Shown here: in pieces, positions 37,984 to 39,138 of the stretch
Layout of the letters: each line of letters begins with the position of its first letter
Numbering within the stretch: position 1 is the stretch's first letter
NCBI GenBank assembly: GCA_003223875.1
Contig: QHWY01000005.1
Coordinates: forward strand, 1 to 42,085
DNA from: Acidobacteriota bacterium
GTDB taxonomy: Bacteria; Acidobacteriota; Terriglobia; 20CM-2-55-15
Direction: 5' to 3'
Length of the DNA stretch: 42,085 nucleotides
Translations under genes and position numbers: made by a program
The notes under the pieces: model-generated
Told to the model about the DNA's origin: nothing
Databases searched by the model: none
The model's input: only the letters and a program-made list of their open reading frames with translations

Positions 37984-39138
37984 ATGATATTCGAGTTGCT
38001 CACGAAGGATCCCAATACACACGCGCGGCGCGGCCGTCTGCATACAGGGCACGGAGTTGTAGAGACACCCGTTTTCATGCCGGTGGGTACGCAAGCAACG
38101 GTCAAGTCGATGACGGCCGATCAATTGCACGATCTCAACGTCGAGATTCTCTTGTGCAATTCCTATCACCTTTTCTTGAGGCCTGGACACGAAACCATCC
38201 ATCAATTGGGAGGGCTGCATCGGTTCATGGCATGGGATCGTCCGATCTTAACCGACAGCGGTGGTTATCAAGTATTCAGCCTGAGCTCTTTGCGCGACAT
38301 CAATGAGGACGGCGTCCGGTTCCAGTCGCACCTCGACGGAAGTACGGATTTCTGGAGTCCGGAAAAGGCGATCGATGTCCAGGTCGCGCTCGGTTCCGAC
38401 ATTATGATGATTCTCGATGATTGCCTTGCATACCCTTCGAGTCATTTTGAAGCCGAAAAGTCCATGCATCGCTCCCTCGTTTGGGCTGATCGCTGTAAGA
38501 AACACAGGGAGGGGCGCACACCTGAATTCCCGAATTCGGCGAATTCGGGAATTCAGGTGTGCGCCCCAGCCCTGTTCGGCATTGTTCAGGGTGGCATCTA
38601 TCACGACTTACGCGAAGAGAGCGCAACGCGACTTGTCGGGATGGACTTTCCCGGTTACGCGATCGGTGGCCTCGCTGTCGGAGAGCCAAAGCCGTTGATG
38701 TACGAAATTATCGATCGGGTTGAGCCGCATTTACCTGCGGCAAAACCGCGTTACCTGATGGGAGTAGGAACCCCCGCGGATTTAGTAGAGGCGATTGCGC
38801 TAGGCGTCGACATGTTCGACTGCGTGATGCCGACCCGGCACGCCCGAAACGGATGGCTGTTCACGAAAGACGGACACATTGTGATCAAGCACGCTAAATA
38901 TAAAGATGATCCCGAGCCGGTGGATGCGACTTGCGGCTGCGTCGTCTGCCGCACGTATTCCAGAGCGTACTTGCGGCATCTTTTTATCGCGAACGAGATC
39001 CTCTCATCCGTGTTAAATACTATCCACAACCTGTACTTCTACCTTGACACAATCCGTAGAATCAGGCAGTTTATCGAGTTCCACCACTTCGATGAATTCC
39101 TAAGAGAAGCAAGGAAGGCTGGGTTTACGCCCAGTTGA
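37984..39138 (+). CDS. tgt: tRNA-guanine transglycosylase Tgt
   Basis: Tgt swaps guanine for preQ1 at the wobble position of tRNAs for Asp, Asn, His and Tyr. The 384-residue protein shows [22 protein letters not shown] near the start, [13 protein letters not shown] (active-site Asp), [43 protein letters not shown] (nucleophile region) and the zinc site ATCGCVVC plus a later His. Residues 176-195 ([19 protein letters not shown]) are encoded by a perfect 57-bp palindrome, in frame in a loop before LFGIVQGG, and are not part of normal Tgt. The enzyme may well stay active because this loop varies in the family. It precedes yajC-secD-secF, a common arrangement. Confidence 0.95.
38511..38567. repeat. 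Perfect 57-bp palindrome inserted in tgt
   Basis: Arms of 27 bp (GGGGCGCACACCTGAATTCC, then CGAATTC) match perfectly around a GGC centre. Its length is 19 codons and it carries no stop in the tgt frame. It contains four GAATTC sites. Family comparison from memory places no such segment in Tgt, so it is read as an insertion. Confidence 0.9.

Follow-up and report, generated by a model that had tools for sequence, protein, structure and literature searches.

The question raised by this locus was how a perfect 57-bp palindrome came to lie in frame within tgt, and to what kind of element it belongs. The window, that is, the whole stretch of DNA that was analysed (42,085 nucleotides of contig QHWY01000005.1), belongs to the soil Acidobacteria genome G000, of 6.6 Mb in 489 contigs. 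The features of the window are presented in Table 1.

Table 1 Positions of the features in the window, counted from its first nucleotide
Feature	Position	Strand	Basis or remark
tgt, queuine tRNA-ribosyltransferase, 384 aa, host gene of the element	37984..39138	+	ORF and NCBIfam TIGR00430 (E 2.6e-150)
57-bp perfect palindrome, family A element (REPIN-like / TIR dimer)	38511..38567	.	In frame, 19 aa
Left arm, GGGGCGCACACCTGAATTCCCGAATTCG	38511..38538	+	First 20 bases match the G004 RAYT element at its upstream end
Right arm, inverted copy	38540..38567	-	Matches the G004 RAYT element at its downstream end
TPR-CHAT gene	31529..34372		
Second perfect palindrome, 69 bp (GGAGAAATTCGGGGACAGTGAGCAATTTC...)	34374..34442		Right after the stop of the TPR-CHAT gene
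GTAG-type REP pair (CGGCGGTCATAGA..CTACA)	about 11100..11168		Member of the family with about 386 matches in G000

Structure of the palindrome and its host gene

The inverted-repeat search and the open reading frame confirmed the original prediction of a perfect 57-bp palindrome that adds 19 codons in frame to tgt. The predicted total length stood, while the predicted arms of 27 nt around a three-base centre gave way to arms of 28 nt, 100% complementary, around a centre of 1 nt. The palindrome score at tgt was 28, whereas 20 first-order random windows of equal composition gave at most 12, and the RNA fold of the 101 nt around the palindrome had a z of -11.1 against 200 dinucleotide shuffles. 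On each strand, two of the three frames through the element were open.

Alignment placed the insert opposite a gap of the solved Tgt chains, directly before LFGIxQG, in agreement with the loop position that had been proposed for it. The G000 assembly contained one copy of tgt, intact apart from the insert. Codon comparison with the G003 orthologue gave a dS of 0.94 and a dN of 0.081 (dN/dS about 0.09), and tgt is therefore under purifying selection. The gene is dispensable in E. coli and many other bacteria, so that its earlier description as an essential-type gene was an overstatement.

The net gain in Tgt length over its relatives was 12-15 aa, less than the 19-aa insert, and in a phosphohexomutase a 41-bp element went with a gain of about 5 aa. 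Since the insert was longer than the net gain in both proteins, insertion either removed part of the former loop or took place in a short one. No exact empty site was found, because loop lengths differ among the species and there is strong divergence at synonymous sites.

Repeat families and their distribution

The element in tgt belonged to a family, termed A, with about 17 loci of 40-65 bp in G000, which shared the ends GGGGCGCACACCTGAAYTC and differed mainly in the length of the centre. More than 20 further copies were present in G004 and a few in the sister genomes G003 and G002, and none were found in other genera among the genomes compared. Most of the copies were intergenic, with the ORF context judged by a simple codon score and most N-terminal "in-gene" cases uncounted. 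A sister family, B (GGGGACGCACCCCGAATTC...), filled G003 and G006. The core pattern of A and B occurred in 7 of the 299 genomes of the class (five from this Acidobacteria family and two with single stray matches) and in none of the controls; the two stray hits aside, a single Acidobacteria family accounts for all occurrences of the core in these genomes. The element search against viral contigs gave no match. Exact pattern matches to a similar palindrome were also seen in Dyella sp. C9 (two loci) and in a Clostridia MAG (L059, L061, L063).

The copies formed a dispersed repeat family of two inverted ends, as is characteristic of RAYT-linked TIR dimers and REPIN-like elements. Direct repeats of 2-6 bp flanked 0 of 19 family A copies, and this lack of target duplication is what such a RAYT-linked reading requires. 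The same count speaks against a DDE-type MITE. The definition of GTAG REPs does not fit family A, as the hairpin ends carried GGGG..CCCC and no GTAG.

The same genomes contained a GTAG-type family (family C), with 386 pattern matches in G000, 246 in G002, 211 in G005 and zero in the controls, which fits the definition of GTAG REPs. Y1 transposase genes of G000 (C399 and C283) were flanked by this family. A 108-bp MITE with the ends GGCTTTGCACAAAAAAT and 9-bp target duplications was also observed (L032 1594-1701, L119 1547-1654, and L004 99-206). It holds a GTAG REP pair inside, and at L032 a family A palindrome was split by it.

RAYT genes with matching ends

In the sister genome G004, the gene P0002, for a REP-associated tyrosine transposase (RAYT), was bounded by GGGGCGCACACCTGAATTCC and its inverted copy, which are the ends of family A (L108, L148). 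Its product matched PF01797 above the cut-off and the NCBIfam model REP_Tyr_transpos with an E of 3e-14, below the curated cut-off. Direct reading of the sequence showed NHTH as an HxH motif and a tyrosine within YVELNPV. RAYT gene fragments elsewhere in G004 kept the family A end. The RAYTs of G008, G002, G009, and G000 each had inverted ends of their own, and those of G009 (L152) matched an arm of the 69-bp palindrome in the window. The G000 assembly yielded no intact RAYT of family A, and the nearest homologue in it (C455) was N-terminally truncated and had other ends.

From its sequence, the 57-bp palindrome is best read as the two ends of the RAYT element without the gene, a REPIN-like non-autonomous element that the RAYT would move in trans. 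The absence of direct repeats at the 19 copies is expected for HUH transposition and not for DDE transposition. A third, solitary family A arm was observed downstream of the G004 RAYT, past a 561-aa ORF (L108 6668-6683), and given this arm, the RAYT and the neighbouring ORF might move together.

In-gene copies and shared loops

In-frame internal copies were found in tgt, in the phosphohexomutase (between domains I and II), in a CT_A_B carboxylase, and in the linker of an E2 acyltransferase, while element copies formed C-terminal extensions of a LysR regulator and a molybdopterin enzyme. The encoded peptides varied with the frame. In-frame insertion in unrelated genes, the behaviour by which Rickettsia palindromic elements are recognised, was thus found here. 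The original prediction of a repeated, mobile-type palindrome that adds peptide without breaking genes was borne out by the multiple copies, by the in-gene copies, and by the low dN/dS of tgt. It also withstood its two named tests, as the peptide was absent from distant Tgt proteins and the element was present in many copies in G000 and its relatives.

Three of the four in-gene cases showed a loop that was occupied again in a relative, a rate that is not unbiased since the genes were found by following the insert. In the Tgt loop, G000 had family A, G003, whose orthologue is the nearest, had family B, and G001 had a GTAG-REP. The mutase linker of G000 likewise held family A, that of G005 a GGGGTCAGACCCC palindrome, and those of G001 and G004 GTAG-like sequence (by eye in G004), and the E2 linker held a B-like palindrome in G004 and a GTAG-REP in G000 and G003. 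The GTAG-type inserts of G001 were degenerate (fold z about -1) and were identified by sequence alone. At the site in the CT_A_B carboxylase, two orthologues had neither an insert nor a second family. That different families share the Tgt, mutase, and E2 loops suggests separate insertions at sites that tolerate them. A repeat-like insert of the GGTTCCAAGTTCCAGG type was also seen in the same loop of the Tgt of G019 (L079, about 2000-2090), which belongs to a distant Acidobacteria family.

Agreement between the arms

Arm mismatches were fewer within copies than between copies, at 1.18 against 2.27 in family A and 2.55 against 5.84 in family B, and none of 1000 shuffles gave a value as low as the within-copy mismatch. 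Several changes were private to a single copy and yet present on both of its arms. Family B copies were often symmetric outside the shared core, and at L130, L133, L146, and L125 the outer arms of family B-type copies were symmetric into sequence absent from the other copies. The earlier inference that perfect arms mean a recent arrival or strong upkeep needs refining, as deviant copies still had matching arms. Because the arms agree even where a copy differs from the rest, arm perfection alone gives no date for a copy.

The paired changes can be explained in either of two ways. Master copies may keep them since folding is needed for transposition, or template switching during replication may copy one arm onto the other. 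Such switching has been documented elsewhere (PMC8604942, PMC8794818).

Comparison with known systems

Di Nocera 2013 (PMC3733652) describes RAYTs with flanking TIRs, among them a distinct Acidobacteria group, with the TIR repeats also found as dimers, and in-frame intragenic REPs that encode 20-30 aa in many genes. TIR-flanked Acidobacteria RAYTs and in-frame intragenic REPs are thus already known, and the tgt element belongs there. TIRYT/TIRtron elements are placed in HuH subclass 2.1 in PMC6006769. Like them, the elements described here comprise a Y1/HUH RAYT gene with inverted ends, which are also dispersed as dimers, in Acidobacteria. They differ in that the family A ends are GGGGCGCA and not GGGGWSAS (a motif of some TIRs, not all), and in that family A dimers also lie in frame within genes. 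Other RAYT ends in the present set fit GGGGWSAS (L149, L151, L153), for example GGGGACAG.

REPINs (Bertels and Rainey 2011, PMC3116915) likewise consist of two inverted repeats that make one hairpin, are dispersed, and have a cognate RAYT. In contrast to REPINs, family A ends lack a GTAG-type tag, the copies number about 17 to 25 per genome, and the arms nearly meet. In the strict sense, both halves of a REPIN are REP hairpins of their own that carry an unpaired tetranucleotide tag; family B arms hold GGGG-ACGCA-CCCC, read directly, which could form a small hairpin, and family A arms could do so less clearly.

The GTAG and CGTC REPs of PMC3733652 are also in-frame inserts in genes, and different REPs are reported there at about the same recB site in two Xanthomonas species. 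Relative to that account, the repeat family and the host are different here, and in three genes one site holds different families in different species.

Rickettsia palindromic elements (Ogata 2000, 2002, as summarised in PMC10969869 and PMC3733652) are in-frame palindromes of about 150 bp in unrelated proteins, and for the related CGTC repeats no associated transposase is reported in PMC3733652. Both systems add an in-frame peptide to unrelated proteins, but the present elements are of 40-65 bp and RAYT-linked. The likeness to Rickettsia elements that had been proposed holds for behaviour. A family tie is not supported, as the present elements are shorter, have their core in one Acidobacteria family among the 299 genomes of the class (two stray hits aside), and are linked to a RAYT. 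Coding palindromes of Nematomorpha mitochondria (PMC6649704) are also perfect inverted repeats in functional genes; there, however, both arms encode conserved protein, and the palindromes are not dispersed inserts.

Origin of the insert in tgt

The best explanation of the whole, with a probability of roughly 0.82, is that a dimer of RAYT ends spread in trans and that one copy landed in a tolerant loop of Tgt. Two inverted ends of a RAYT (a Y1/HUH transposase) element would have been joined back to back into a REPIN or TIR dimer, which would have spread among genomes of a single Acidobacteria genus, with the cognate RAYT as its most likely mover in trans. Going by the enzyme class and the absent direct repeats, it probably moved as single-stranded hairpin DNA without target duplication. 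One copy would then have entered the length-variable Tgt loop, where it could survive because 57 bp is a multiple of three, the frame has no stop, and the site is outside the conserved fold. Different palindrome families would have been taken up independently by the same loop in G003 and by other loops in other genes, and the in-gene copies would therefore be selfish insertions that persist where the protein tolerates them. The two arms of one copy may be kept identical by the need to fold in transposition or by hairpin-templated correction.

A single palindrome might instead have been inserted into tgt before G000 and G003 separated, with lockstep divergence afterwards by arm copying or selection. 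The two closest tgt orthologues do carry an insert in the same loop, those of G004, G005, G006, and G008 have none, and the arms of one copy do co-vary. Independent insertion is nevertheless favoured, because the insert of either tgt gene matches the family active in that genome (family A for G000, family B for G003) despite a dS near 1. Unrelated GTAG-type repeats in the Tgt loop also show that independent hits do occur, and a single ancestral insertion is considered unlikely.

Retention for a benefit to the host, for example through an RNA element within the tgt message or through an adaptive loop, is still less probable. The hairpin in the message is very stable and tgt is under purifying selection, but there are orthologues without the insert, the peptides encoded at this site by unrelated palindromes differ, and the family copies are mostly intergenic. 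Movement by a DDE transposase as an ordinary MITE, for which the short length, the inverted ends, and the other MITEs of G000 would speak, is slightly more improbable again, given the lack of target duplications at family A copies against exact 9-bp ones at the 108-bp MITE and the Y1 transposase gene flanked by matching ends. Palindromes do trouble assemblies, since several other copies lay at contig ends in G004 and G006, but a fold-back or chimeric joint in this metagenome-type genome is highly improbable, as the reading frame is kept through the insert, the contig runs on at both sides, and a related palindrome occupies this loop in the independent assembly of G003.

Implications

With spread in trans from RAYT ends as the preferred reading, two stories are joined, namely the in-frame "protein-coding palindromes" of Rickettsia, which have no known mover, and the RAYT-linked REPs, which are commonly taken to be extragenic. 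The palindrome described here has RAYT ends and lies inside genes, and relatives are without the insert or have another family at the same loop. The unexpected part is that the same loops appear to have been refilled repeatedly and that the arms changed together. It is tentatively suggested that a few protein loops may act as recurrent insertion sites, cleared and filled again over time by unrelated mobile palindromes, which would feed new loop and linker sequence into core enzymes, and that arm-to-arm copying may keep coding palindromes perfect and so force paired amino-acid changes. The system makes it possible to test the tolerance of loops to insertion, the turnover of palindromes, and whether arm perfection is due to selection or to mutational copying.
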